A stretch of 64,000 bases of DNA from Aestuariispira insulae. Its GTDB lineage: Bacteria > Pseudomonadota > Alphaproteobacteria > UBA8366 > Aestuariispiraceae. Location: contig NZ_QRDW01000015.1 in the NCBI RefSeq assembly GCF_003385955.1, positions 1 through 64,000 of the forward strand, in the 5' to 3' direction. The stretch's first letter is position 1. Each line of letters begins with the position of its first letter. Shown piece after piece: positions 48,088 to 60,740 of the stretch. Both the position numbers and the translations under genes were made by a program. The notes below the pieces were generated by a model, which was not told the origin of the DNA, ran no database searches, and saw only the letters and a program-made list of their open reading frames with translations.

Positions 48088-48657
48088 TCAGGCATCAGGC
48101 ACAAACTCTTCAGGAAACAAGCCGAATAAGATTCGATCAGTATATTTTCCATTAATCATTGCATGTTGGCGTAAGACGCCCTCTTGATGAAAGCCCAAGC
48201 TTTTGAAGCAGCGGCACATTGCCATATTGGTCTCATTCGTGCTCGCACATAGCCTACGTAGCGACAGTCGTTCGAAAGCATAACGTGCAGCCAGTGAAAC
48301 GGCCTTCTTAGACAGCCCTTTCCCAATAAAATCCTGGTGACCGATCATGATTCCGACTTCCGCTTGACGCATTCGCCAATCAATCCCCAACAGCCGTAAA
48401 GTTCCAATAAAAACGCCTGTTTCTTTATGAATAATTGCAAAAAACGCATCATTTTTGCTGATAAAAAGGTTCCGAACGTATTCTTCAACCTTATTAAATT
48501 GAAGCGGCATTAGATATTCAATTCGATTGATACCAGAGACAACGTCGGGATTTCTCAACCACGAAAAATATGTTGGGTCAAACAGGTGTTTTTCTTGAAA
48601 TTCTTCAAGAATGATTGAACTGCCCTCGATCGTAAGGCCTTGAATGTCTTCTGTCAT
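48088..48657 (-). CDS. GNAT-family N-acetyltransferase (RimJ/RimL-like)
   Basis: A 189-residue acetyltransferase. FIGTLRLLGIDWRMRQAEVG is the beta-4 strand, GIMIGHQDFIGKGLSKKAVS (QxxGxG/A-type acetyl-CoA loop as Q-D-F-I-G-K-G) is motif A, and CASTNETNMAMCRCFKSLGF is motif B. In bacterial nonulosonic-acid pathways a GNAT protein (PseH type) acetylates an amino sugar, so an amino-sugar acceptor is plausible here. Serine/alanine protein acetylation is an alternative for the RimJ/L group. It lies 15 bases downstream of the GT42/DUF115-like gene. Confidence 0.88.
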   Translation of the reverse strand: MTEDIQGLTIEGSSIILEEFQEKHLFDPTYFSWLRNPDVVSGINRIEYLMPLQFNKVEEYVRNLFISKNDAFFAIIHKETGVFIGTLRLLGIDWRMRQAEVGIMIGHQDFIGKGLSKKAVSLAARYAFERLSLRRLCASTNETNMAMCRCFKSLGFHQEGVLRQHAMINGKYTDRILFGLFPEEFVPDA

Positions 48658-48672
48658 TTTTGAACCTCTTCC

Positions 48673-49638
48673 CTACTGCGGACGGCTATCCGAATGTCTT
48701 CCATCATATACCGACAAGACCTGGGATAGGAGCGATTTAGGATTATAGACTTGTATCTCGACGCCATTCACCTGAAATTCCGCGTTCCATCTGGAAATCA
48801 GATCGAGAATTCCTGCTGTCGCGGTGCTGTGAGCCTCGTCAAATCGCTGCCCCCTATCCGTAACCGCAGATATTTCCTGCTTGCCTGTTACGTAGTCTGT
48901 ATAGATTGTCTCATCGTCACGAAGCCAGAAGTATCTCGAATCATAAAGATCAACCCCAACAAGGACTATTCTTTTCCACTCCATACAGTAGGCAAATGAG
49001 ATCGCATCGCAAAGAGTTCCGACACCGTGGCAAACATAGTCAGGCTGATTTGGGTCTGGAGATGAACTTTCCTTCAGTGTTTTAAACTGAAAGATCTTTG
49101 TACCTTTCGCAAAATACCCATCACCAACCAGCGTATTTCCAAAAAAAGCACGGAAATCATGCTGCACAACAAATGTTGTATTCCGATACTCATCTTTTCC
49201 ATCAATCAGAGAAATGAACTCTTCGGATATCTCCGCAGCGATCTCCGGATCTGTCACCCCTTCACGCCAGCCTCGGATCAAATGATAATCAGACCGCACC
49301 CAATCCTGCCTGACGAAATGGTTAAAGCCCATCGTGTCATGCATTGCGATCCTGCGCCATTCTTCAGCAGAAATATCGTTTAAGGAATATCCAGAACCGA
49401 AAATAAAAATCGTTTCCGATTTTTTACTTTGCTTGATTTCTTCATGGGAAAGGTTTCGATACCGAGACTTCCGGAACTTAGATTTCGTATGGGCGCGTAG
49501 CAAATATGCATTCAGTTGGACATAATTTCCGAAACCGTGTTCCCGAATTCGCGCCACCGCCCCAAATGCGTTTTGCACAAATCTAGTACGAACAACAGGC
49601 CTCAAGATATCTCTAATCATCTGCCAAGAAATCCTCAC
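48673..49638 (-). CDS. Putative CMP-sugar transferase (GT42/DUF115-like)
   Basis: A 321-residue protein I cannot assign firmly. FIFGSGYSLNDISAEEW is an N-terminal G-S-G-x-S-L nucleotide-binding-like loop, followed by MGFNHFVRQDWVRSDYHLI. The middle has CHGVGTLCDAISFAYCMEWK then RIVLVGVDLYDSRYFW, and the end FDEAHSTATAGILDLISRW with a conserved-looking His. The same order of features (GxGxSL, N-x-F, a G-V/T helix then 'GVDLY', and a late His) occurs in GT42 sialyltransferases and the DUF115/Maf nonulosonate-transferase group, from memory. Its start overlaps the stop of the neuA-like gene by 4 bases, which supports use of a CMP-sugar. Confidence in transferase activity is moderate. Confidence 0.55.
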   Translation of the reverse strand: MRISWQMIRDILRPVVRTRFVQNAFGAVARIREHGFGNYVQLNAYLLRAHTKSKFRKSRYRNLSHEEIKQSKKSETIFIFGSGYSLNDISAEEWRRIAMHDTMGFNHFVRQDWVRSDYHLIRGWREGVTDPEIAAEISEEFISLIDGKDEYRNTTFVVQHDFRAFFGNTLVGDGYFAKGTKIFQFKTLKESSSPDPNQPDYVCHGVGTLCDAISFAYCMEWKRIVLVGVDLYDSRYFWLRDDETIYTDYVTGKQEISAVTDRGQRFDEAHSTATAGILDLISRWNAEFQVNGVEIQVYNPKSLLSQVLSVYDGRHSDSRPQ

Positions 49639-50345
49639 ACCAGACCTGGATTGTTCAAATACACTTCAGCCAGCAGAAAATCTTTGAGATTATCAATATC
49701 TAACCCGTTACGTGCATCAGTGAGATAAGCAAAGGTCTTGTCAGTCAGGAAAGACTGTTCTTTCCGGAAATGCTCCCATTCCGACAAACAAACTGAGCCT
49801 GACAGTTGGAAAAACTGCGGCAACTCCTGACGGTTCTTTGTTCGGATAGCAGGATCAATAAAGTCGCGCATGCTTTGGCTTTCAGGTAAGGCATTCGCCT
49901 GCCAAGGATGATGATCACATTCGCGAACAGTAAAAATCGCCTTGGCGTCATCATTTTCCACCAAAGCCTCAAGACAAGCATCCACTTCTGCGGCATCGCG
50001 AAGCGGTGTGGTTGGTACGAGCACCATCACATAATCATATGCTCCCTCCTCAGCCTCGACCCAATCCATAGCATGTAGAATGGCGTCTTCCTGTTTGGAT
50101 AGATCTCCGGCAAGAGATTCCGGACGGATAAATGGGGCTTCTGCGCCATATGCAACGGCAGTATCAACGATGTCTTGGGAATCGGAACTAACTATGATAC
50201 GGTCAACATAGTGCGAATCACGGGCTGCTTCGATCGTATAGGCGATTAAAGGCTTCCCCATCAATGGCTTGATGTTTTTGCCTGGCAGCCCCTTAGAACC
50301 ACCACGCGCCGTAATCACCACTAGTACCTTTTTATTTTCAATCAT
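49635..50345 (-). CDS. neuA: CMP-nonulosonate cytidylyltransferase (NeuA-like)
   Basis: A 236-residue nucleotidyltransferase. VLVVITARGGSKGLPGKNIK (residues about 6-25) is the CTP-binding signature of NeuA, PseF and LegF enzymes. LMGKPLIAYTIEAARDS and DRIIVSSDSQDIVDTAVAYG follow, and VLVPTTPLRDAAEVDACLEAL is the LQPTSPLR equivalent. It should activate a nonulosonic acid as its CMP derivative. I chose the ATG at 50345; a frame extending 16 codons upstream overlaps the HD gene. It is 2 bases after that gene and overlaps the putative transferase gene by 4 bases. Whether the sugar is sialic, legionaminic or another acid cannot be told. Confidence 0.92.
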   Translation of the reverse strand: MIENKKVLVVITARGGSKGLPGKNIKPLMGKPLIAYTIEAARDSHYVDRIIVSSDSQDIVDTAVAYGAEAPFIRPESLAGDLSKQEDAILHAMDWVEAEEGAYDYVMVLVPTTPLRDAAEVDACLEALVENDDAKAIFTVRECDHHPWQANALPESQSMRDFIDPAIRTKNRQELPQFFQLSGSVCLSEWEHFRKEQSFLTDKTFAYLTDARNGLDIDNLKDFLLAEVYLNNPGLV

Positions 50346-50347
50346 TT

Positions 50348-51070
50348 TCACGCCATATGTTGCGCAATGAACCTGTCCAGCTGATCCTTGCAATCGGGCC
50401 TGTAACCTGCGGTTTCCTGGAATTCAGCAACAGCAGTGAAATAATCACCGAACGGTTTGGAGAGCCTGTATGCCATGGGGGCCACAAATTGCTTTGCCAA
50501 GGCGACATAGCTCGATTTAACCGAGGGATCTTCGATAATCTGGGCACCAAACAAATTGTCGAGTTTGTCACAACAACGCACTAGCGACAAAGCCGGCCCC
50601 CAGCCTTCGATCGCACTGTAAAACCCGGCTAAATACTCTGGGTCTTCTTCATAACGGCGGTCAATTGTGAGCAGCCCGATTGCCGTCTGAATACGTTTTG
50701 AGTAGCCCGCATCACGCAAATCAATTTTCGTCAGGCTGGTAATCTCAAAAAGATTGTGCATCAGTGCGATTTCAATGGTCTCGGCACAAGGTTTCGACAT
50801 CATTTGCGCAACACAGCACGCAACCCGCAACGGATGGCTGAGATATGCGATCATTGAGGGATGATGTTCATTCTCCGGTTCCAACCGATAAACGAATGCG
50901 AGCGTATCAGATAGTTTCTTTCTGGACTGATCATCTAGCTTTTTTGCGCCAAAGACCTCAAGTTCATCTCTGATTGGTTTGGGAGGCACAAGCATGGAGC
51001 CAAGCTTCCTATCCACTTCTTCTTCAACTGAGCCAAAGGGCAGTGTGATTTGAAAATCAGAAACCGCCAT
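50348..51070 (-). CDS. Degenerate HD-domain protein (RelA/SpoT-like hydrolase fold)
   Basis: A 240-residue helical protein. HHPSMIAYLSHPLRVACCVA then IEIALMHNLFEITSLTKIDL resemble the HPLxVA ... AALLHDVVEDT core of Rel/Spo-type HD hydrolases. The metal-binding HD pair has become HN (Met-His-Asn), and the ED pair has become EI, so canonical metal-dependent hydrolysis is doubtful. RTAIGLLTIDRRYEEDPEYL follows, with the helix found after the HD core in that family, then VRCCDKLDNLFGAQIIEDPS with the conserved 'K-L-x-D/N' segment. Its start overlaps the upstream SDR gene by 14 bases and its end is 2 bases from neuA. Function is unknown; a phosphatase-like role would be speculation. Confidence 0.7.
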   Translation of the reverse strand: MAVSDFQITLPFGSVEEEVDRKLGSMLVPPKPIRDELEVFGAKKLDDQSRKKLSDTLAFVYRLEPENEHHPSMIAYLSHPLRVACCVAQMMSKPCAETIEIALMHNLFEITSLTKIDLRDAGYSKRIQTAIGLLTIDRRYEEDPEYLAGFYSAIEGWGPALSLVRCCDKLDNLFGAQIIEDPSVKSSYVALAKQFVAPMAYRLSKPFGDYFTAVAEFQETAGYRPDCKDQLDRFIAQHMA

Positions 51071-51863
51071 GGGAAGCACCGCCATCAAGGGGGATTGCTG
51101 TACCGGTCAGGTAACCAGCCGCTTCAGACGCCATAAAAAGAATCATCTGAGAGAACTCTTCAGGGGAAGCAATATGCTGGATCGGCAGCGTTTTACCGAT
51201 ACGCACACATGCCTCTTCCAGAGTTTCTCCGGTGGTCTCAATTTCCTCACGAATAAAGGAGAACGCTCGTTCGGTCAGCACGCCACCGGTCAAAATCGTG
51301 TTAACGGTAATGCCAAACGGCCCTAGATCGCGCGATAGTGTCTTGGAAAGAGCCACCACCCCGGCCCGGGTGACATTTGAGAGGACCATACCGGATTCGG
51401 GTTCCTTCGCGGTTAAGGATGTCAAGTTGATGATCCGGCCCCAGTTATTCTTCTTCATGCCAGGCACAACAAGCTTGGCCAGCCGGATCACACTCAACAT
51501 ATTCCGGTTGATGGCACCGTCCCATTGTTCTTCGGTCATTTCAAGCGTATCGCCTGACGGCGGGCCGCCATTATTGTTAACGAGAATGCTAATTTCGTCC
51601 GAGAAATGCGAGGCTGTGGAACTAGTCAGTTCCTTGAGAAAAGAAGGATCCCCGATGTCACCCACCATTGCATACAAACGATCTGCACCATGCGGAGACA
51701 TTTTTTCGATCGCTTCATCTAGCCCGTCTTGGTTTCGCGCGCAAATGGAGACATTGGCGCCCATACGATGGAGGTTCTGGGCAATTCCGAAACCGATCCC
51801 TTTGCTGCCTGCGGTTACCAGGGCTGTTTTCCCGGAAAAGTCGATAATCATAGGGCTGTCCAT
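51057..51863 (-). CDS. SDR-family protein lacking the catalytic Tyr and Lys
   Basis: A 268-residue protein with SDR nucleotide-binding features: KTALVTAGSKGIGFGIAQNL (TGxxxGxG) and ISILVNNNGGPPSGDTLEM (NNxG). The catalytic triad is broken. Aligning GRIINLTSLTAKEPESGMVL then SNVTRAGVVALSKTLSRDLG without gaps to FabG puts Ser at the Tyr position and Arg at the Lys position, while the Ser is kept. This variant occurs in a recognisable group of SDRs. It may act as a binding or scaffolding protein or use different chemistry. Gene order places it between the kinase gene (5 bases upstream) and the HD gene (overlap 14 bases). Confidence 0.88.
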   Translation of the reverse strand: MDSPMIIDFSGKTALVTAGSKGIGFGIAQNLHRMGANVSICARNQDGLDEAIEKMSPHGADRLYAMVGDIGDPSFLKELTSSTASHFSDEISILVNNNGGPPSGDTLEMTEEQWDGAINRNMLSVIRLAKLVVPGMKKNNWGRIINLTSLTAKEPESGMVLSNVTRAGVVALSKTLSRDLGPFGITVNTILTGGVLTERAFSFIREEIETTGETLEEACVRIGKTLPIQHIASPEEFSQMILFMASEAAGYLTGTAIPLDGGASHGGF

Positions 51864-51868
51864 CTGTG

Positions 51869-52933
51869 TCAGTGATTGGCAAAAATAAATTCAATTTCGT
51901 GTAAGGAGACCAGGTGTTTGGGCAATGCAAAATTCTGCCTCAGATCGCCGCGCAACAGCCAGCCAGACAAGATTTCATATATCAAGCTCAATACTTGATA
52001 ACAAGCGCCAAGCCGGAGCATATGTGCATCAACCCTCTCCGCCGGAAAAGAACTGTTCCAGTTTTCAATCCACATCGCCAATTGTTCACGCGCCTGCTTT
52101 CTTCTGTCAGCAACCGGACAGTCCACCAAGCTTTGTCGAATGAGTTTGAGTGCTGCAAATCCATTGGCCGCTAACATTGAATGCGGCTTCACATCTTCAA
52201 AATCCAGGATGCAGGCCAGTTTTTCGCCTGAGAAGAGAAGGTTATGCGGATGATAATCCGTATGCATTAGTTTCACATTCCCCCGCAGAATTTCCTTACC
52301 ATTGATCACCGAATACACCGCCTCCTTCAAGTACTGACGGTTATCAAGGAAAACGGCCGCATTCTCTACCGATGGATCAATGTTTTGATCGGATTCATCT
52401 GTACAAAATTCAATCAGTTTATCAAGAAATCCCAACTCCAATCCATGTTCATTGCAAGACTGATCCCTTAAATCGGCAAACGCCTTTGACAGTCGGGAGA
52501 ATCCAATTGAAGCTGATTTCAGTTGAGCAGCACCTCCAGTATAATAGCAACCTGGAATATACGCATAGCGAACCCAGGTCTTGCCTTCGACAAGATGACT
52601 CCAACTTCCGTTATATGCATGAACCGTCCTCGCCGCAGGCAATCCGGCCGAGCGAAGCGCCTCACTCAATTCCGCTTCGTAAGCAAAGCGTGCCCGTCGA
52701 TCACCGGAACTCGCCTTCAGTATCAATGTTTCTCCGGGCGTTTCGACCCGATAGTTTCTGTTAAATATCCCGGGTGTTCGGATTCTTTTGATGGATGGTA
52801 GAACAGATGGCGGAAAGTTGTAGCCATCCTCAAGAACAGAAAGAACAGTCGCGACCTCATCAGAGTCGGGAGAAAGAAGGTCCGCCACAACCGACCTGCA
52901 GGAAAGATTATTCGGCGCAAAAAGCTCTGCCAT
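51869..52933 (-). CDS. APH/choline-kinase-like small-molecule kinase
   Basis: A 354-residue kinase of the aminoglycoside phosphotransferase fold. LILKASSGDRRARFAYEAEL includes the ATP-binding Lys and the Glu of the helix. VKLMHTDYHPHNLLFSGEKL is the HxDxxxxN catalytic loop, and ACILDFEDVKPHSML is the metal-binding D-F-E/D. All catalytic residues are present. The substrate may be an amino alcohol, a sugar or an amino sugar; choline and ethanolamine kinases are relatives. The ATG at 52933 overlaps the stop of the exonuclease gene (TGATG), so the two are translationally coupled. Its activity in this locus is inferred to be a sugar or carrier phosphorylation step. Confidence 0.85.
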   Translation of the reverse strand: MAELFAPNNLSCRSVVADLLSPDSDEVATVLSVLEDGYNFPPSVLPSIKRIRTPGIFNRNYRVETPGETLILKASSGDRRARFAYEAELSEALRSAGLPAARTVHAYNGSWSHLVEGKTWVRYAYIPGCYYTGGAAQLKSASIGFSRLSKAFADLRDQSCNEHGLELGFLDKLIEFCTDESDQNIDPSVENAAVFLDNRQYLKEAVYSVINGKEILRGNVKLMHTDYHPHNLLFSGEKLACILDFEDVKPHSMLAANGFAALKLIRQSLVDCPVADRRKQAREQLAMWIENWNSSFPAERVDAHMLRLGACYQVLSLIYEILSGWLLRGDLRQNFALPKHLVSLHEIEFIFANH

Positions 52934-53499
52934 CAAATCAACTTCTGTTTTGGGAACACTCCTTTTCCCATACAGCGCATAAAACACTCCCGAACAACCA
53001 GAGCGTCAAACAAAGCCTCATGCCGCTGTCCAGAAACAGAATGTTCGATAAAATTGCCTCGATCCAGATCAGGATCAAGTCCTGCCAAAGCAAATATTGT
53101 CGTCAGATCAAAATGTGCAGCATGATTTAAATAGTCCGGCAGACAGTAGAGATTGTGAAAATATTCACGATCCGGATAGGCCTTATGCCATAGCTCGAAC
53201 AACAGTATCAGATCGTGTGTTTTGCCGAAGGATACAAGGGAGACTGATTGCTTTTTGCGATAGGACTCGAACCAGTCAGCCAGTATTCGAAAACCTTCCT
53301 CCTGGCTCACCGATTCCCTCTCATCAATATGGGCTAGGACATTCTCTTCAAGCCATGGCGTAACCTGATTGCGGTCATAATCATTGAAAGAAAGATAGAT
53401 TTTTTCATCCCCCTCTCCAACTATCCCCAGAGAAACAAGCGTTGTAAATTTGTGCTCGCCGGTGAATTCCGCATCGATGAACGCAAGAACATTTCTCAT
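52933..53499 (-). CDS. DEDDh-type 3'-5' exonuclease-like protein
   Basis: A 188-residue RNase H-fold protein. NVLAFIDAEFTGEHKFTTLV carries the DxE of motif I, SLVSFGKTHDLILLFELWHK the second Asp region, and SVSGQRHEALFDALVVRECF the HxxxxD of motif III. This is the full DEDDh set expected for exonucleases. No additional domain is visible, so it is a short, single-domain nuclease like those related to oligoribonuclease or DnaQ. It is tightly coupled to the kinase gene by a TGATG overlap and lies 10 bases after the amidotransferase gene. A nuclease inside a sugar-nucleotide pathway is unexpected; nucleotide trimming or an unrelated housekeeping role are possibilities. Confidence 0.75.
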   Translation of the reverse strand: MRNVLAFIDAEFTGEHKFTTLVSLGIVGEGDEKIYLSFNDYDRNQVTPWLEENVLAHIDERESVSQEEGFRILADWFESYRKKQSVSLVSFGKTHDLILLFELWHKAYPDREYFHNLYCLPDYLNHAAHFDLTTIFALAGLDPDLDRGNFIEHSVSGQRHEALFDALVVRECFMRCMGKGVFPKQKLI

Positions 53500-53509
53500 C
53501 GCGCCACCG

Positions 53510-54640
53510 TCAGTCCCAAAGATTGTCTTTTACCCAATTGCCCATCGAATCCTTGCGCCAGACACGCGGGTCCCTGAACCTGTCCGCAATTTCCCAGAAC
53601 TCTTCTTCACGCATCTCGACATAATCAAGCCAATAATAGAGATCATCCGAAACGACATCGTCATATTTCCGGACCATCTCCACCCCGGTCTCGCGATCCA
53701 TATAACCGGTCCGAATATCCTTTGAAGCATGATCCGATGCCCGACCATAACCGAACTTGATGAATTTCAGCAGGTCGTGAATTCCGTTTTCATATCGGTC
53801 ATCCAGGTTTGAAATATTCCGATAAGTGCGCTCAAACGGTCGACTTGGCATTTTCCAGCCATATTTTTCATGCGCCATTTTTGCGTGAGCGTTCGGATCC
53901 CATTTAAAATAGTTACCAATATAAAGTCCCCGGACCCCAACATTTATGATTTCCTCATCAGTTGGATATTTTGCCCAGTTCATATCACGCTCGGTCAACG
54001 GGTCCTCCGGATCATCAAGCATATCATACCATTCATAACCGCGAACAGAATGCTCATGACGGACGCGGGCGCTGAATTCAACGAAATCGTCGGGGCCATG
54101 CATGCCGGAAAGATCCCAGGCCGTCTCTCCCCAGATGATCAGCGGAATATTGAATTTGACCGCTATCTGAATCGGGGTGGTATAAATCCCACAGTGGGCC
54201 TGCCAATTCATATCGCCCATTTTCTTGAAACAGATACGATTGAGCTTTTTGATCACGTCGACACTTGGGCCATATATGATATGATCAGCATCGAAAACAT
54301 GGCGCATCCTGTCTCGGTTATAGTCGGCCACAGGAAGATAGTTGTTTCCGTGATAGGTCATCAAAAGCGGTTTAAGACCAAACTCGGTAGCCATGATATG
54401 CGTTTGATAATAGCTATCCTTGCCACCACTTACAGGGATGAGACAGTCGAAATCGCCACCATTCCTGTTCTTGAGGATCATATCCACGATCCGTTCGAAT
54501 CGTTTTCTGCGCTGCGCCCAGAAGTCCGGAGTTAGTGCTTCAAATTCTTCAAAAGACCGGCAGCTGGAACAAACACCTTCTTCATCCAAAGACAAATTGA
54601 CTGCGACTTCTGGATAGACACAACGGGTACAATATTTCAT
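53510..54640 (-). CDS. N-acetyl sugar amidotransferase (WbpG/PseA-like)
   Basis: A 376-residue PP-loop enzyme. The N-terminal zinc-like CTRCVYPEVAVNL ... CSSCRSFEEFEAL segment (two CxxC pairs) is followed by FDCLIPVSGGKDSYYQTHIM, the ATP pyrophosphatase SGGKDS motif near residue 80. IIWGETAWDLSGMHGPDDFV and IRTGYMDRETGVEMVRKYDD follow. The family adds nitrogen to an N-acetyl sugar, making an acetamidino group in B-band O-antigen or flagellin glycans. It takes ammonia from a HisH/HisF pair, and both are encoded next door. I use the ATG at 54640; a TTG just upstream is in frame. Confidence is high for family and moderate for product. Confidence 0.9.
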   Translation of the reverse strand: MKYCTRCVYPEVAVNLSLDEEGVCSSCRSFEEFEALTPDFWAQRRKRFERIVDMILKNRNGGDFDCLIPVSGGKDSYYQTHIMATEFGLKPLLMTYHGNNYLPVADYNRDRMRHVFDADHIIYGPSVDVIKKLNRICFKKMGDMNWQAHCGIYTTPIQIAVKFNIPLIIWGETAWDLSGMHGPDDFVEFSARVRHEHSVRGYEWYDMLDDPEDPLTERDMNWAKYPTDEEIINVGVRGLYIGNYFKWDPNAHAKMAHEKYGWKMPSRPFERTYRNISNLDDRYENGIHDLLKFIKFGYGRASDHASKDIRTGYMDRETGVEMVRKYDDVVSDDLYYWLDYVEMREEEFWEIADRFRDPRVWRKDSMGNWVKDNLWD

Positions 54641-54679
54641 CAAACTAACTCTTCTGAAAGGATGCCGGCTACTATGAGA

Positions 54680-55486
54680 TTAGGCAGAAATCAGGTCCGG
54701 TGGGCGCACGTTATACCCATTGTCGTGTAAATATTTTTTTGCGACATGGACGCTTTGATCATAGTAGTGAAAAATATTTGCAGCAGCAACTGCATCCACA
54801 TTTGTCTCGTCGAGGGCATCCCCGAAATCCCACCAATCTCCGACACCACCAAGAGCGATAACCGGCACCTGAACATTGGTGCTGACGAGGTCAAGCACAG
54901 GCAGATCATATCCCATTCTCATTCCATCATGATCAATGGAATTTAACAAAATCTCTCCTGCCCCCAAACTTTCTACTTGCTTCGCCCAGTCCAACGGCTT
55001 CAAACTTGTTGTTTCCTGCCCATACCCTGTCATTACAACATGATCGCCATCAACTTTCTTCACATCAATCGACACAACGATACATTGTGAACCAAATTCC
55101 TTGGCTGCCTGAGTAATGAACTCCGGCTCGCGGAGAGCCTGGGTATTGATTGAAATTTTGTCTGCGCCGCGTTTCAGTCGATCTTCAATATCTTGAAGCG
55201 ATCGGATCCGCCCACCAAATGTGAGCGGCATGAAACAAACTTTGGAAATCTCTTCCAAAACTTCCAACGGAGTATTCAGACCTCGCTGTTTTTTATCATC
55301 CCGATCACTTCGGTATTTCCCGCCGCGCGAGATATCAAGATAAATAAGTTCGTCGCTTGCCCACGCGCTCAATCGCTGAACCGATGTCACCGGATTACCA
55401 AGATCCTGATGCTTGGCAAACAATTTGCTCTGAACAATATATCCGTCTTTGAGGAGCAAAACGGGAATAAGTCTGTTTTTTTTCAT
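54680..55486 (-). CDS. HisF-like partner of the sugar amidotransferase
   Basis: A 268-residue TIM barrel of the HisA/HisF family. RLIPVLLLKDGYIVQSKLF, ISVNTQ-type strand DKISINTQALREPEFITQAA, IVVSIDVKKVDGDHVVMTGY and EILLNSIDHDGMRMGYDLPV are the barrel strands. In histidine-pathway HisF the first strand reads C-L-D, and that Asp is catalytic; here the position is Leu (VLLLKD), while the second catalytic Asp (SID) remains. It therefore probably guides ammonia, not imidazole-ring closure. It lies 2 bases after hisH-like and 37 bases before the amidotransferase gene, matching the known three-gene arrangement. Confidence 0.9.
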   Translation of the reverse strand: MKKNRLIPVLLLKDGYIVQSKLFAKHQDLGNPVTSVQRLSAWASDELIYLDISRGGKYRSDRDDKKQRGLNTPLEVLEEISKVCFMPLTFGGRIRSLQDIEDRLKRGADKISINTQALREPEFITQAAKEFGSQCIVVSIDVKKVDGDHVVMTGYGQETTSLKPLDWAKQVESLGAGEILLNSIDHDGMRMGYDLPVLDLVSTNVQVPVIALGGVGDWWDFGDALDETNVDAVAAANIFHYYDQSVHVAKKYLHDNGYNVRPPDLISA

Positions 55487-55488
55487 AT

Positions 55489-56109
55489 CTACTGCTGGAT
55501 AGCCAGAAAGTTTTCGATCATTCGACGTCCGGGTTTCTGGCTCTTTTCCGGATGAAACTGAACACCGAGAATATTATCCTTTCCCATTACACAGGGAAAA
55601 GTCTCGCCATAAGTGGTGGTTGCCAGCAACTGGCTTTCATCAATATCCTTGAAAACAAAACTATGCACAAAGTAAAAGTCCCGATTATCCTCAAAGGAAT
55701 TCAAAAGAGGGCACTCGCGCACAATGTCGACATCGTTCCAGCCGATATGCGGCAAACGCACTCCGGAAGCAGAGATTTTACCTACGGTGCCCGACAGCCA
55801 CCCCAATCCATCTGTTTCACCAAATTCATCACTTTTGTCAGCGAGAATTTGAAACCCGACGCATATGCCAAGGAACGGCTTGCCTTTGCCGCAGACCTCC
55901 TCCTCAATCAACTCCATCGGCAACGTGGAGTTAATCTTGGCCATAGCTGCACTAAAGGCCCCAACCCCCGGCAGAAACAAATGCGACGCATTCCGAATAT
56001 CATCGGGGGCGTTGGAAATCACTACGTCATCAGAAATACTCTGGACCATATTATAGACAGATCGAACATTTCCGGACCCATAATCCAATATGCATACGCG
56101 CGAAGACAT
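55489..56109 (-). CDS. HisH-like glutamine amidotransferase, partner of the sugar amidotransferase
   Basis: A 206-residue class I glutaminase. VCILDYGSGNVRSVYNMVQ opens the domain, LFLPGVGAFSAAM carries the oxyanion region, KPFLGICVGFQILADKSDEF has the nucleophile Cys (about residue 87), and ILGVQFHPEKSQKPGRRMIE has the His and Glu of the triad. It releases ammonia from glutamine for use by the HisF-like and WbpG-like partners. I start at the ATG at 56109; upstream in-frame TTGs are possible. A 202-base non-coding gap separates it from the neuB gene. Histidine biosynthesis is unlikely because no other his genes are near. Confidence 0.9.
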   Translation of the reverse strand: MSSRVCILDYGSGNVRSVYNMVQSISDDVVISNAPDDIRNASHLFLPGVGAFSAAMAKINSTLPMELIEEEVCGKGKPFLGICVGFQILADKSDEFGETDGLGWLSGTVGKISASGVRLPHIGWNDVDIVRECPLLNSFEDNRDFYFVHSFVFKDIDESQLLATTTYGETFPCVMGKDNILGVQFHPEKSQKPGRRMIENFLAIQQ

Positions 56110-56311: not shown

Positions 56312-57367
56312 TTACAAGAAATCATCCCATTGAAGCACTTTGTCCTCCACCAGATCATGTTTGGCCCTCGCCCCAACGATGACTTCGTAGAATCGAGGCT
56401 CAATGCCGGTTCCCGGTCGTTTCACCTCTAGATCCTGTTCCCGAACAATTTCACCGGCTTTCATTTCCCGATTGATAACCAGGCTGCGCCGCGCCTGTTT
56501 GCGTGATTCCGTCTCACACTCCAAAAGAGGCTTGCCGCCTTCACCCAACAGCATATCGGCGTAGTCACACTGCTCCCTGAAGGCCTTAAAATCATCCGGG
56601 TCCAACGCATGATAATGATCATTACCCGGTTTGCTTTTGTCCAAGGTGTAATGTGTTTCAATGATTCTGGCACCTCTGGACCAAGCTAAAGTCAGAGCGA
56701 GCCCTCCATGACTGGGCGGAACATGGTCGCTATATCCAGTCACATATCGTGGAAAGGTTTCTTTTAGAAAATCAATGCCACGCAGATTGGCATCCTTGGG
56801 ATCCGTCGGATAGGACAGCACGCAATGCAGCAGACAAATATCGGTACACCCTTCCGCTTCGATTACCTCGATCGCTTCATATATCTCAACGATCTTCGCA
56901 GCCCCCACCGACAGAATCATCGGCTTACCCTTAGACGCGCAGCGTCGAAGAAGCGGGAAGTTTGTTACATCCGCAGACGCAATCTTAAACGCCGGCATCA
57001 GACACGCCAGTTCATCCGCAAAATCCAGATCAAACGGGGTGCTCAAAAAATCGATCCCGACATCACTGGCAACCTGGGCCAAAACTTCATACTGTTTAAT
57101 ATCGAAATGGTCATATTTCGAAAACAACTGAAACTGGCTGGTGGTGGATTCCTTTGAGAGATCCCAATAGGAAGGACTGAATTTTGATGCAAGTTTGCCG
57201 GATTTGTAACTCTGAAACTTGATGGCATCGACACCAGCTTCCGCAGCGGCAACAACCATATCCCGCGCAATGCCTAGATCACATTCGTGATTGACGCCCG
57301 CCTCTGCAATCAGATACGGCCGATTTCTGGAGAGGGTAAGTCCCCCAAACTGAATATCCTGTCTCAT
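56312..57367 (-). CDS. neuB: NeuB-type nonulosonic acid synthase
   Basis: A 351-residue condensing enzyme. RPYLIAEAGVNHECDLGIAR (E-x-G-x-N-H) begins the barrel, VDAIKFQSYKSGKLASKFSP follows, and FLSTPFDLDFADELACLMPA and FKIASADVTNFPLLRRCASK are family signatures. A C-terminal SAF antifreeze-like domain runs from about residue 285 (ARRSLVINREMKAGEIVREQ then DLEVKRPGTGIEPRFYE). NeuB, PseI and LegI join PEP to a six-carbon amino sugar to make a nine-carbon acid. Which sugar is used cannot be told. The ATG at 57367 overlaps the GT2 stop (ATGA). No NeuC-type 2-epimerase or dehydratase is in the window. Confidence 0.94.
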   Translation of the reverse strand: MRQDIQFGGLTLSRNRPYLIAEAGVNHECDLGIARDMVVAAAEAGVDAIKFQSYKSGKLASKFSPSYWDLSKESTTSQFQLFSKYDHFDIKQYEVLAQVASDVGIDFLSTPFDLDFADELACLMPAFKIASADVTNFPLLRRCASKGKPMILSVGAAKIVEIYEAIEVIEAEGCTDICLLHCVLSYPTDPKDANLRGIDFLKETFPRYVTGYSDHVPPSHGGLALTLAWSRGARIIETHYTLDKSKPGNDHYHALDPDDFKAFREQCDYADMLLGEGGKPLLECETESRKQARRSLVINREMKAGEIVREQDLEVKRPGTGIEPRFYEVIVGARAKHDLVEDKVLQWDDFL

Positions 57368-58029
57368 TGGCCCTTTTGCTTTCTTCTGCTCTCCTTGATA
57401 GCAGACAGCTTTTGCCTGAACTCGCACATAAGGTCGGCATTTTTTGTAATATTGTGATGGTGCTTGGTATAGCGATATAGCGGCAAGTGAACATTGCCGA
57501 TTTCAAACTTCTCCTCGTAACGGATGCGTAACTCCTCATCTTCACATAATAGCATCCGTTCATCATAAAGACCTACGTCAATTAGATTTTCTTTGCGGAA
57601 CATAATACCGCAGGCGATGGGATCTTTCATTGCGGAATAGCGTTCAAGATGCTGCTCATCCTCATCAACCTCGTAATAGTCACAAGCCACAGCTCCCCAT
57701 TCGGGATTAAAGGCGAGATGCATTTCTTCGATATAGAGCAGATCCTCATGCATATAGTCATCAGAATCCAGATGCATCACAAAACGCCCTTTGGCTTTCC
57801 TGATACCTGTATTGCGCGCCGCCGGCAGCCCCTTGTTTCCATCATGAAAAATGGACACCACCTCTTCGCCGAAGTCTGTAATCACCGCGCGAGAACTGTC
57901 TGTCGAGCCATCATCGACGACAATCACTTCAAAATCATCTCGGGGAAACCGCTGGGAAATTGCACTACGTATGGCACGCGCGATAAATTTTTGCCGGTTA
58001 TAGCATGTAATGATAATACTAACTTTCAT
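57364..58029 (-). CDS. Family 2 glycosyltransferase
   Basis: A 221-residue GT-A enzyme. VSIIITCYNRQKFIARAIRS is the N-terminal strand, FEVIVVDDGSTDSSRAVITD binds the nucleotide, and GRFVMHLDSDDYMHEDLLYI holds the DxD metal motif. It is short, with essentially only the catalytic domain. I start at the ATG at 58029; the preceding GTG is also in frame. The stop overlaps neuB and the start overlaps spsF by 11 bases, so it is embedded in the nonulosonate gene group. Its transfer reaction is unknown. Confidence 0.92.
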   Translation of the reverse strand: MKVSIIITCYNRQKFIARAIRSAISQRFPRDDFEVIVVDDGSTDSSRAVITDFGEEVVSIFHDGNKGLPAARNTGIRKAKGRFVMHLDSDDYMHEDLLYIEEMHLAFNPEWGAVACDYYEVDEDEQHLERYSAMKDPIACGIMFRKENLIDVGLYDERMLLCEDEELRIRYEEKFEIGNVHLPLYRYTKHHHNITKNADLMCEFRQKLSAIKESRRKQKGQ

Positions 58030-58765
58030 CACTCAATCCTTCATACATCGCACTCCGCTTCTCACCAATATTCATCTTTGCGATGAGAGGGTTTTCTTCA
58101 AGGAACCCGATGATGTCGTTCATCAGGAAAATCTGCCCCTCCCGATAGAGTGAGGAATAGACCGCCTCTGCCATCTGGAAATCCGCCTCCGTATCAATTG
58201 TCCAGCGATACTGCGGATATCCTTGATCGCATGCGATATTCCGTTGAGGAAACCGGTCAGGATTGCGATAGAAAAACTGCGTCACATGCTCCCGTTCAAA
58301 AGGATCCTTAGCCTCTTTGCCGGCGCATTCTAAAGCCGCATAAGTGAACACTTCCGCATCAAGACCTTCCGGATAGGATGGCGGATTATTATTGCTGGCA
58401 AAAGCCAATCCGTTCTCCAGAAGGCAATCGACAACCAAATCGGTAATCACCGGGTCCTTAAAGGGATCATCGGCAGTAATTCGGGCGATAACATCGGCGC
58501 CCACAGCGTTAGCGGCCTTGCAATAGCGCCCTAAAACATCGGCTTCACTGCCGCGAACGCACAAAATGCCATTTTGTTCGCACCATGCTTGAAGAACGTC
58601 ATCAGCCGGGCTCACTGTCGTGGCTAGCACAATATCCGTTATCCGGCGGCTAAAGCGAAGGCGTTCAACAATATGGGCAATCAACGGCTTTCCCGCGAGC
58701 GGTCGCATAACCTTCCCCGGTAGCCTTGTGGCCCCCATGCGTGCCTGGATGATAGCGGTAATCAT
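58019..58765 (-). CDS. spsF: SpsF-like cytidylyltransferase
   Basis: A 248-residue nucleotidyltransferase. ITAIIQARMGATRLPGKVMR is the SpsF signature at residues 2-21, PLAGKPLIAHIVERLRFSRR follows, and VGADVIARITADDPFKDPVI is the D-x-P region. The family resembles CMP-KDO synthetase and is common in nonulosonic-acid and surface-polysaccharide loci, often next to a NeuB and a DegT aminotransferase. It is distinct from the neuA-like gene at 49635, so two different sugars or two activation steps may be involved. The gene lies 5 bases downstream of an SDR. Confidence 0.92.
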   Translation of the reverse strand: MITAIIQARMGATRLPGKVMRPLAGKPLIAHIVERLRFSRRITDIVLATTVSPADDVLQAWCEQNGILCVRGSEADVLGRYCKAANAVGADVIARITADDPFKDPVITDLVVDCLLENGLAFASNNNPPSYPEGLDAEVFTYAALECAGKEAKDPFEREHVTQFFYRNPDRFPQRNIACDQGYPQYRWTIDTEADFQMAEAVYSSLYREGQIFLMNDIIGFLEENPLIAKMNIGEKRSAMYEGLSDES

Positions 58766-58770
58766 AGCGT

Positions 58771-59562
58771 TTACCAGGCCGTCCAGCCGCCTTCGACCAG
58801 CACATTGCTGCCAGTGCTGTAGGAAGACGCATCAGATGCAAGATAAAGAACTGAACCTACAATCTCTTCAGCCTTCATCATACGCTTCATCGGAGACATG
58901 GCGCTAAAACGGTTTTCGAAGGCTTCTTCATGATGGTTCCAGACCCCGTGCGGCGTGATGCAATTCACACGCACTCCCCTGGACGCCCAATAGCAGCCCA
59001 GATACTGGGTCAGCATAATCACTCCGCCCTTGCTAGCGCTGTACGCGACAGGATTACCCATCTGATTATCTTCATACAGTGCCGGATTCGATGAAACCAC
59101 GCCATAAGTTGACGCCATGTTGATGACAGATCCCGCCCCCTGCTTCAGCATCTGGCTCCCGAAATCCCTACAGGTCAAGAAAGTACCTTTTAGGTTTACA
59201 TCCAAGACATGGTCCCAAAGCTCTTCAGGGAAATTTTCGGCCTGCCCTTCCAGAAAGCCCTTCGGTTTTGCATGGTGGTTGTTAATCAAGACATCCACCT
59301 GCCCGAAATGCTCCAGGGTTTTACTCAGCAACTGTGCAACGCTGTTGGCGTCGGCAACGTCTGTCGGCACCCCGATACAGCTATCGCCGAACGAAGCCGC
59401 AAAAGCTTCCGGATCTGCCGCCTCAACATCAGCGATTACAAGTTTGGCCCCTCTTTGATGAAGTGCCTCCACAATCGCACGGCCGATCAAACCGCATCCG
59501 CCGGTCAAAACAACCGTCTTCCCAGCAACATTAAAGACCGGATCAAAAACCTGTTCTGACAT
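58771..59562 (-). CDS. SDR-family oxidoreductase with intact active site
   Basis: A 263-residue SDR. KTVVLTGGCGLIGRAIVEAL binds NAD(P), VDVLINNHHAKPKGFLEGQA holds a variant NNxx motif (NNHH in place of NNAG), SVINMASTYGVVSSNPALYE has the catalytic Ser, and NPVAYSASKGGVIMLTQYLG has the YxxxK. The end of the protein (SDASSYSTGSNVLVEGGWTAW) is typical of the FabG-like subfamily. It lies between spsF and the aminotransferase and resembles PtmA-like dehydrogenases of nonulosonate loci; a sugar keto-reduction or oxidation is inferred. The ATG overlaps the DegT stop by one base (TAATG). Confidence 0.92.
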   Translation of the reverse strand: MSEQVFDPVFNVAGKTVVLTGGCGLIGRAIVEALHQRGAKLVIADVEAADPEAFAASFGDSCIGVPTDVADANSVAQLLSKTLEHFGQVDVLINNHHAKPKGFLEGQAENFPEELWDHVLDVNLKGTFLTCRDFGSQMLKQGAGSVINMASTYGVVSSNPALYEDNQMGNPVAYSASKGGVIMLTQYLGCYWASRGVRVNCITPHGVWNHHEEAFENRFSAMSPMKRMMKAEEIVGSVLYLASDASSYSTGSNVLVEGGWTAW

Positions 59563-60740
59563 TAACCTGCAAACTCCCTGGCTGTTCTATGCAAAATTTC
59601 AGCTTGCTTCTCAGCCCGGCGAACATCCCAATAATTGGTCTTCAACTGAAGCATGCGCGGTTGAAGTTTCTCGGCAACAGGACACAAACCAGCTTCGTAA
59701 GGCTGGGTGACTCCATCCATATTTTGAACATCTTTTTGAAAATAGGGCTCCATATAATTCAGCAGCCAAGCCGCGTAATAATTGTCCCCGCCATTCCCTT
59801 GATGCAGTTTCCGGAAAGTGAACCAATCTTCTTCAGGTTTGTCTGTTTCCAGTTGAAGGGCGCAAGCCCAGTGGGCGTTCTTGTAACCTTTAGGCTCTGC
59901 CTGCGGCCGCAGAAACGAAAACTCCGCTACGGCCTGCTCAAAAAGCTTGGCAGCTTTAACACGGGCATCAACCAATTCATCCAAACGCTCAAGCTGAGCC
60001 AACGAAACGGCGGCATTGATCTCAGACAACCGGTAATTGTAACCTAGGCACACATGCCTGGCAAAGTTCGGGCTCTGAATGTCATCCTTACTGATGGAAC
60101 CCTTCTTAGCTCCAACGGTAGAATAACCGAGATTCGCAATGCGGCGGGCCTTATTGGCCAGTTCTTCGGTCTTAGCCGTGAGCATCCCACCATTTCCGCA
60201 GGTCATATGTTTGGAAGCCTGAAAACTATAGCTCGCAAACTCACCAAACTGGCCGACTAATTTTTCTTTATACTCTCCCAAAAAACACTCAGCATTGTCC
60301 TCTACAAGACCCAGCCCATGCTCCCGGCACACCTCCATCAGGCGGTCATAGTCAGGCGCCAGCCCATAAAGGGAAACCGAAATCACGGCCCTGGTTTTAT
60401 CGGTAATCTTACGCCGGACATCTTCCGGATCAATTGTAAAAGTTTCCGCATCCACATCAGCAAAAACGGGAATTCCGCCCGCCTGCAATACTGCGAAGGC
60501 AGTGCTTCCCATCGTCAACGGCGGCACAATCACCTCGTCACCGGCGCCGACATCCAGGGCAAGCAAGGCGGTATGCATCGTTGCGGTACCGTTAACATGT
60601 CCAATCGAATAGCCAACGCCGAACTTGTCACAGAACGCCGCCTCAAGTCGTGAGTTGAAGATATTCCCCAACGACGACCGGAAACAATATTCCAAGGCTT
60701 CAGCTACATACAGTTTCTCAAGATCGGAAATACGCTGCAT
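59562..60740 (-). CDS. DegT/DnrJ/EryC1/StrS-family aminotransferase
   Basis: A 392-residue fold type I PLP enzyme. YSIGHVNGTATMHTALLALD and GDEVIVPPLTMGSTAFAVLQ form the cofactor pocket, LGLVEDNAECFLGEYKEKLV carries the PLP Asp, and FASYSFQASKHMTCGNGGML carries the Schiff-base Lys (about residue 184). NYRLSEINAAVSLAQLERLD is the standard family C-terminal helix. It adds an amino group to a nucleotide-linked or free keto sugar; a catalytic Lys is present, so it is an aminotransferase and not a dehydratase. It is the first gene after a 114-base gap downstream of the ABC exporter. Confidence 0.93.
   Translation of the reverse strand: MQRISDLEKLYVAEALEYCFRSSLGNIFNSRLEAAFCDKFGVGYSIGHVNGTATMHTALLALDVGAGDEVIVPPLTMGSTAFAVLQAGGIPVFADVDAETFTIDPEDVRRKITDKTRAVISVSLYGLAPDYDRLMEVCREHGLGLVEDNAECFLGEYKEKLVGQFGEFASYSFQASKHMTCGNGGMLTAKTEELANKARRIANLGYSTVGAKKGSISKDDIQSPNFARHVCLGYNYRLSEINAAVSLAQLERLDELVDARVKAAKLFEQAVAEFSFLRPQAEPKGYKNAHWACALQLETDKPEEDWFTFRKLHQGNGGDNYYAAWLLNYMEPYFQKDVQNMDGVTQPYEAGLCPVAEKLQPRMLQLKTNYWDVRRAEKQAEILHRTAREFAG

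Follow-up and report, generated by a model that had tools for sequence, protein, structure and literature searches.

The 64,000-nt stretch analysed here, referred to as the window, comprises positions 1 to 64,000 of contig NZ_QRDW01000015.1 of the alphaproteobacterium Aestuariispira insulae (GCF_003385955.1). Between positions 53499 and 48673 on its minus strand, the open reading frame (ORF) list of the window contains six closely packed genes in the order EXO-KIN-SDR-HD-NEUA-TRF. A preliminary description had regarded these genes as a candidate undescribed module with a single function, possibly the synthesis or quality control of an unusual sugar linked to cytidine monophosphate (CMP). The six genes are:

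52933–53499, minus strand: EXO, a DEDDh 3'-5' exonuclease-like protein
51869–52936, minus strand: KIN, an APH-fold kinase, for which the ATG start at 52933 is more likely
51057–51863, minus strand: SDR, a short-chain dehydrogenase-type protein with Ser and Arg for Tyr and Lys
50348–51070, minus strand: HD, a degenerate RelA/SpoT-like HD domain of 240 amino acids (aa)
49635–50348 (first Met at 50345), minus strand: NEUA, an acylneuraminate/PseF-type cytidylyltransferase
48673–49638, minus strand: TRF, a putative transferase, distantly MptE-like

The coordinates, order and families given in the preliminary description hold, the family of TRF being the least certain, and no gap exceeds 5 nt. EXO and KIN overlap by 1 nt, or by 4 nt with the TTG at 52936 as the start of KIN, KIN and SDR are 5 nt apart, SDR and HD overlap by 14 nt, HD and NEUA are 2 nt apart, and NEUA and TRF overlap by 4 nt. 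The tight one-strand spacing goes on at both sides: the limits of the six-gene set are arbitrary because the neighbouring genes are nearly as close, WBUX lying 10 nt before EXO and GNAT 15 nt after TRF. Codon usage is weak evidence that these genes are coding, the coding frame being no better than the best other frame for NEUA, EXO and GNAT and barely ahead for TRF and KIN. Judged from sequence comparison, the coding status of NEUA, SDR, EXO and TRF is carried by their homologues and that of KIN and HD by family or motif matches. At 48–54 kb of the window, no direct repeats of at least 20 nt and three weak pairs of inverted repeats were found. No RNA feature in the window reached the gathering threshold, and a scan for promoters and terminators, which returned 16 and 13 candidates against 17.9 and 14.2 expected by shuffling, is uninformative either way.

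Matches to NEUA at E ≤ 1e-20 were found in 100 of 385 genomes of the class, including the genome under study. We surveyed 120 stretches of up to 20 kb, some overlapping or short, around all listed NEUA matches except G316:C255 and G246:C4; together with four plasmid loci and a stretch of contig C1 of the same genome, these made 125 stretches totalling 2.2 Mb (loci are cited below by their L numbers). The six families did not occur together in any of these stretches or in the sampled whole genomes, and the single function proposed for the set thus found no backing. Two sub-associations recur, once each: EXO with a kinase near NEUA (L055) and TRF with NEUA (L100). Searches of the 125 stretches with tblastn recovered TRF once (L100, E = 2e-38), EXO once (L055, E = 4e-40), no KIN, and for HD a single chance-level row (E = 0.42). 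SDR matched 31 times in 24 stretches. The highest-scoring match was 27% identical over 268 aa; none exceeded 28% over at least 150 aa, with short pieces reaching 32%, and no close SDR was present.

Among whole genomes, EXO was found in none of 288 other genomes of the class and none of the 32 nearest relatives, and TRF in none of 397 other genomes of the phylum and one of 13 other genomes of the family. At E ≤ 1e-6, HD matched weakly (25–28% identity) in 3 of 384 further genomes of the class, each time within a RelA/SpoT-like frame of 723–738 aa. The genome sets were sampled, so the families may be present in genomes outside the draw; to judge from match strength, the L055 genome (G336) was not among the 289 class genomes drawn, nor G005 among the 398. 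Against plasmids, tblastn gave one weak match to EXO, two weak matches to KIN and none to HD, TRF, the L055 EXO or the L055 kinase; the nearest plasmid SDRs were 38% identical to SDR. Scans of viral contigs with HD, EXO, KIN, TRF and SDR singly found no relatives, nor did two composite scans, and a third composite scan gave three EXO relatives. Two scans of genome contigs were empty, which are weak negatives, as short fragments could hardly reach the E-value limit or only two 7-residue patterns were searched. Long frames suggestive of NeuA fusions were mostly spurious, with two HAD-like tails and one GT-like head recognised by eye. Among the top-ranked literature matches, which give partial coverage, no description of such a gene set was found.

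The first sub-association lies in a genome of another family (G336), in which EXO is directly followed by an APH-motif kinase, a second NeuB and NEUA. The full minus-strand order of L055 is WBUX-like, SpsF-like, GNAT with a PseG-like tail, ATP-grasp, NeuB, PIG-L deacetylase, EXO, kinase, second NeuB and NEUA; the second NeuB (PF03102, E = 6e-34) thus occupies, between kinase and NEUA, the place that SDR and HD have in the window. The EXO proteins of the two loci are 43% identical over 173 aa (z = 68 against shuffles), the NEUA proteins 38%, the SpsF-like proteins 39% over 237 aa and the WBUX-like proteins 56% over 135 aa, the last alignment being cut by the end of the stretch. The ATP-grasp gene (PF15632/PF02655) and the GNAT gene, which is fused to a region that is PseG-like by eye, lie at L055:16435-18827.

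KIN matches PF01636 above the cut-off (E = 2e-12; 47.7 bits, cut-off 23.2). We take HxDxxxxN...D to be its APH kinase motif; the L055 kinase carries the motif by pattern, and H225, D227, N232 and D245 of KIN are retained in the alignment of the two proteins. A single BLASTP comparison of KIN with the L055 kinase gave E = 0.003, and 299 of 300 shuffles scored lower than this pair (z = 3.6), whereas the scores of KIN with two other APH-like proteins were exceeded by 65 and 178 of 300 shuffles (z = 0.9 and -0.3). If the L055 kinase begins at its first start, it overlaps the end of EXO by 64 nt; with a later GTG as the start, 8 nt would separate the two. Among 2044 ORFs picked from the 125 stretches, a pattern scan found EXO once, adjoining the APH-motif kinase, and 18 APH-pattern frames, two of which (L055, L101) looked APH-like by eye; the ORF picker missed some genes, e.g. 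the L055 SpsF gene, and the motif pattern missed a further APH protein in L055 (PF01636, E = 3.9e-9). The best solved match to a two-row profile of KIN and the L055 kinase was N-acetylhexosamine 1-phosphate kinase (E = 0.022), followed by unrelated kinases, which we treat as a lead only.

The second sub-association was found in a genome of the same family, where a TRF homologue (L100:8649-9737) directly precedes NEUA; its end is masked by N, and the exact junction is uncertain. The two TRF proteins are 35% identical over 272 aa, with long conserved stretches (34% in another alignment). Against the MptE-like family PF01973 (cut-off 34.6 bits), both fall short, TRF at 18.2 bits (E = 0.0023) and the L100 protein at 30.5 bits (E = 3.6e-7). 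TRF showed no match to the Maf N-terminal domain, and its profile had no match among solved chains at E ≤ 1. The L100 protein weakly matched one ORF of L136 (E = 3.5e-4, 16.5 bits), which a two-row profile did not confirm. NEUA itself lies above the cut-off of PF02348 (E = 1.4e-22; 81 bits, cut-off 22.6) and below that of the PseF model TIGR03584 (160.8 bits, cut-off 205.7).

By its residues, EXO is a complete DEDDh protein, and its relatives place it in a family common in phages. D9, E11, D96, H160 and D165, which we take to be the catalytic residues, are invariant in four aligned sequences; EXO had been listed among the atypical members of the set, and it is indeed a DEDDh nuclease-like protein, but its motif is intact and it is not degenerate. 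It resembles the Rv2179c/RNase AS family in these residues and in the match of a profile of EXO and three relatives to Rv2179c structures (4oke, E = 2.9e-13), but differs in scoring below the RNase AS equivalog NF033638 (E = 7e-9; 36.2 bits, cut-off 200) and in being far nearer to phrog_2259 (E = 2e-21), a family found in 112 of 50,697 phage records (by name, 77 from Bacillus and 31 from Enterococcus). PF16473 was likewise matched below its cut-off (E = 7e-4). Three contigs of IMG/VR (L016-L018), recovered by the composite viral-contig scan, encode EXO relatives of 26–31% identity, and a Miltoncostaea plasmid (L175) carries an exoribonuclease relative (28%) near a Thg1-like gene, with no sugar genes annotated within 6 kb. 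A role in anti-phage defence was considered and rejected: run on the five proteins other than NEUA, PADLOC matched only EXO, with a generic CRISPR-associated DEDDh model (E = 4e-4).

The HD and SDR proteins do depart from their families in the way the preliminary description had proposed, as both alignments confirm. SDR matches PF13561 (E = 5e-45); aligned to SDR2, an ordinary short-chain dehydrogenase of the same cluster, it carries Ser in place of Tyr and Arg in place of Lys and lacks the classical active site. Its nearest solved chains by sequence are 6jh7, presumably AerF, said to be a double-bond reductase, and 2z1n. Both share with SDR a Ser at the Tyr position, and at the Lys position 2z1n has Arg, as SDR does, and 6jh7 Asn. 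The pathway context of these divergent proteins differs: of AerF, PMC10143770 states only that it takes part in Choi synthesis. 

HD matched no Pfam family at E ≤ 0.1 and one RelA/SpoT-type NCBIfam model (E = 0.0013). Compared by tblastn with six RelA/SpoT-like frames, it retains the first His (SHP), the late Asp and, in the HD pair, the His, but the motif LLHDT(I/V)EDT reads LMHNLFEIT, in which D is changed to N and D to I, so that the HD metal motif is not intact; the metal or catalytic roles of the changed positions are those that we assume for this family. HD thus has an HD region alignable with the RelA/SpoT hydrolases and differs from them in these positions and in its 240 aa, against at least 723 aa for the frames. 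Single-sequence AlphaFold models of HD and TRF (mean predicted local distance difference test scores of 40 and 34) were too poor to use.

The genes on both sides of the six, all on the minus strand, belong largely to a nonulosonate cluster:

48088–48657, minus strand: GNAT acetyltransferase (PF13302, E = 3e-20)
53510–54643, minus strand: WBUX, N-acetyl sugar amidotransferase (TIGR03573 WbuX, 310.9 bits, cut-off 203.2)
54680–55486, minus strand: HISF, WbuZ-like HisF (TIGR03572, 255.5 bits, cut-off 299.7)
55489–56109, minus strand: HISH, glutaminase subunit (TIGR01855, 220 bits, cut-off 105.4)
56312–57367, minus strand: NEUB, nonulosonate synthase (TIGR03569, 291 bits, cut-off 400; TIGR03586, 238 bits, cut-off 340)
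58019–58765, minus strand: SPSF-like cytidylyltransferase (KdsB-type NCBIfam models, best E = 1.6e-15, below cut-off)
58771–60740, minus strand: SDR2, an ordinary short-chain dehydrogenase, and a LegC/PseC-type aminotransferase (TIGR04181, 203.8 bits, cut-off 420)

Upstream of EXO, the order is NEUB, HisH, HisF and WBUX, with a gap of 202 nt between NEUB and HisH; a GT2 gene, the SpsF-like gene, SDR2 and the aminotransferase gene lie upstream of NEUB. The name SpsF for the gene at 58019–58765 is one that we assign by resemblance, not from a curated model. Two cytidylyltransferase-type genes (58019–58765 and 49635–50348) thus share one cluster with a single NeuB. Sugar genes extend to contig position 71.8 kb, as read from the ORF list. 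The GC content is 0.42–0.52 for the cluster genes at 44.5–62.7 kb and 0.50–0.60 for the scored genes below 32 kb, 17 of 18 of which lie at 0.54–0.60.

The same genome has a second nonulosonate set on contig C1 (897000–916000), with NeuC, NeuB, Gfo/Idh, NeuA, WbuX, HisF, HisH (the last three identified by tblastn only) and a Maf protein with both the Maf N-terminal domain (PF20157, 92.6 bits) and the MptE-like domain (PF01973, 95.2 bits). No tblastn match to TRF, KIN, HD, SDR, EXO or GNAT was found in the C1 stretch at E ≤ 1e-3. Because the C1 set has the Maf protein and no match to these genes, flagellin glycosylation more likely belongs to it, and the cluster in the window would serve another surface glycan.

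We tentatively favour, at close to an even chance, a reading in which the six genes form the promoter-distal end of a single gene run for a nonulosonate, a sugar resembling sialic acid, within a surface-polysaccharide cluster, NEUA and TRF activating and transferring the sugar and the others being accessory. We favour it because the tight one-strand spacing continues on both sides together with low GC content at 44.5–62.7 kb; because the WbuX and HisH models are matched above, and the WbuZ and NeuB models below, their cut-offs; because a TRF homologue abuts NEUA in L100 and L055 has the row EXO-kinase-NeuB-NEUA, with genes like SPSF and WBUX lying 5' of it; and because the KIN/L055-kinase pair stands out against shuffles, which KIN with the two other APH-like proteins does not. 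From the observed gene order, families, residues and two recurring adjacencies we infer the catalytic roles, the acceptor and a single transcript. The aminotransferase, SDR2 and NEUB would make a nine-carbon acid, to which WBUX, HisH and HisF would add an acetamidino-type group; NEUA would activate the acid with CMP, and TRF might pass it on to an acceptor at the surface. The most likely part of KIN, SDR and HD is in preparing or modifying the sugar or one of its substituents (by phosphorylation, hydride transfer, and phosphate removal or regulation), and EXO could be a nuclease of phage type that was recruited as an accessory and perhaps acts on an intermediate linked to a nucleotide. Of the original proposal, the link to an activated CMP-sugar is supported by NEUB, HisH, WbuZ-like HisF and WBUX directly upstream and by the recurrence, once each, of EXO-kinase near NEUA and TRF beside NEUA, but one six-gene module is not supported.

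Several results count against this reading. Each recurrence is a single locus, KIN at E ≤ 1e-6 had no match in 384 other genomes of the class, and 45 relatives of the L055 genome yielded no match to the L055 EXO. The alignment of KIN with the L055 kinase shows just 20% identity, and the L055 kinase has no Pfam match at E ≤ 0.01. A two-sequence TRF profile compared with the Maf protein of the same genome gave an hhalign probability of 0.5%; the assignment of TRF as a transferase therefore relies on sub-threshold Pfam matches and position. Finally, with an SpsF-like cytidylyltransferase encoded two genes before NEUB, NEUA may act on a different acid.

This last point leads to a rival that we consider possible, if on balance rather unlikely: the cluster makes two CMP-acids, the product of NEUB being activated by the SpsF-like enzyme and a second acid by NEUA. 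KIN, SDR and HD would make the precursor of this second acid, and TRF would transfer it as the activated sugar. SpsF-like genes and NEUA occur together in 8 of the 125 stretches, three of which (L055, L106, L110) have two NeuB; in these, NEUA adjoins one NeuB (L055, L110) or lies one gene away (L106), and the SpsF-like gene adjoins the other (L106) or is 3–4 kb off (L055, L110). The position of the second L055 NeuB, in the place of SDR and HD, fits as well, as does the naming of Bacillus subtilis spsF as a putative cytidylyltransferase of the CMP-legionaminate pathway in PMC7439481. However, four of the eight stretches show one NeuB and one shows none in the part retrieved, the window itself has a single NeuB and no apparent enzyme for a second 2-keto acid, and complementation of the B. 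subtilis spsF deletion failed, as reported in the same source. In L106:9644-16275, one of the two NeuB genes overlaps the SpsF-like gene, and after the other come a gene that, by eye, may encode a radical SAM protein and then NEUA.

In a more speculative proposal, which we hold to be doubtful, EXO and KIN would be an undescribed accessory pair of CMP-ulosonate pathways, a phage-type DEDDh nuclease acting on a small nucleotide-linked substrate (e.g. in editing or recycling a CMP-sugar or by-product) and an anomeric sugar kinase feeding a second acid branch activated by NEUA. EXO, KIN, SDR and HD might be passengers in a variable, horizontally acquired sugar locus, with no part in the sugar pathway. 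The low GC content, atypical codon use, the phage records with EXO relatives and the lost HD motif residues point that way, but a genome of another family has EXO and an APH-motif kinase in this same order near NEUA, the EXO and KIN motifs are intact, and the genes overlap or nearly touch, which makes this improbable. Least probable of all is that the six genes form one functional module for an unusual CMP-sugar: despite the very tight packing and the single recurrences of EXO-kinase near NEUA and TRF by NEUA, the six never occurred together in any search, the boundary genes are nearly as close, HD is in neither L055 nor L100, and the L100 SDRs are 24 and 27% identical.

It is the gene pairs, EXO-kinase near NEUA and TRF with NEUA, rather than a whole module, that are worth following. 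Nonulosonate loci are highly variable, and the genes that determine the final sugar often lack an assigned function. Should EXO-KIN indeed act together with NEUA, the involvement of an RNase-family protein in sugar activation would be new chemistry and could serve as a marker in finding further loci of this kind; otherwise, the locus illustrates a mosaic sugar operon that shares gene pairs rather than modules.

Among known systems, we take the aminotransferase and NEUB of the window to be equivalents of SpsC and SpsE of the B. subtilis sps legionaminate pathway. In PMC7439481, spsF is reported to be required for legionaminate transfer to the forespore surface, and the window is similar to this pathway in having an SpsF-like cytidylyltransferase near NeuB and an aminotransferase, but differs in NEUA and the amidotransferase set, the SpsF likeness being one of resemblance rather than of a curated model. 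With nonulosonate operons that carry an acetamidino modification (WbuX/HisH/HisF, NeuB and NeuA/PseF/LegF, Maf flagellin glycosylation being one use), of which the same genome has a plain version on C1, the window shares NEUB, HISH, HISF, WBUX and NEUA, and it differs by the extra EXO, KIN, SDR and HD, the SpsF-like second cytidylyltransferase and a TRF that has no Maf N-terminal match. The comparison suggests that the cluster is a variant of this known operon type, in which the unusual part is the EXO-KIN pair, whose counterpart lies near NEUA in one other bacterium.

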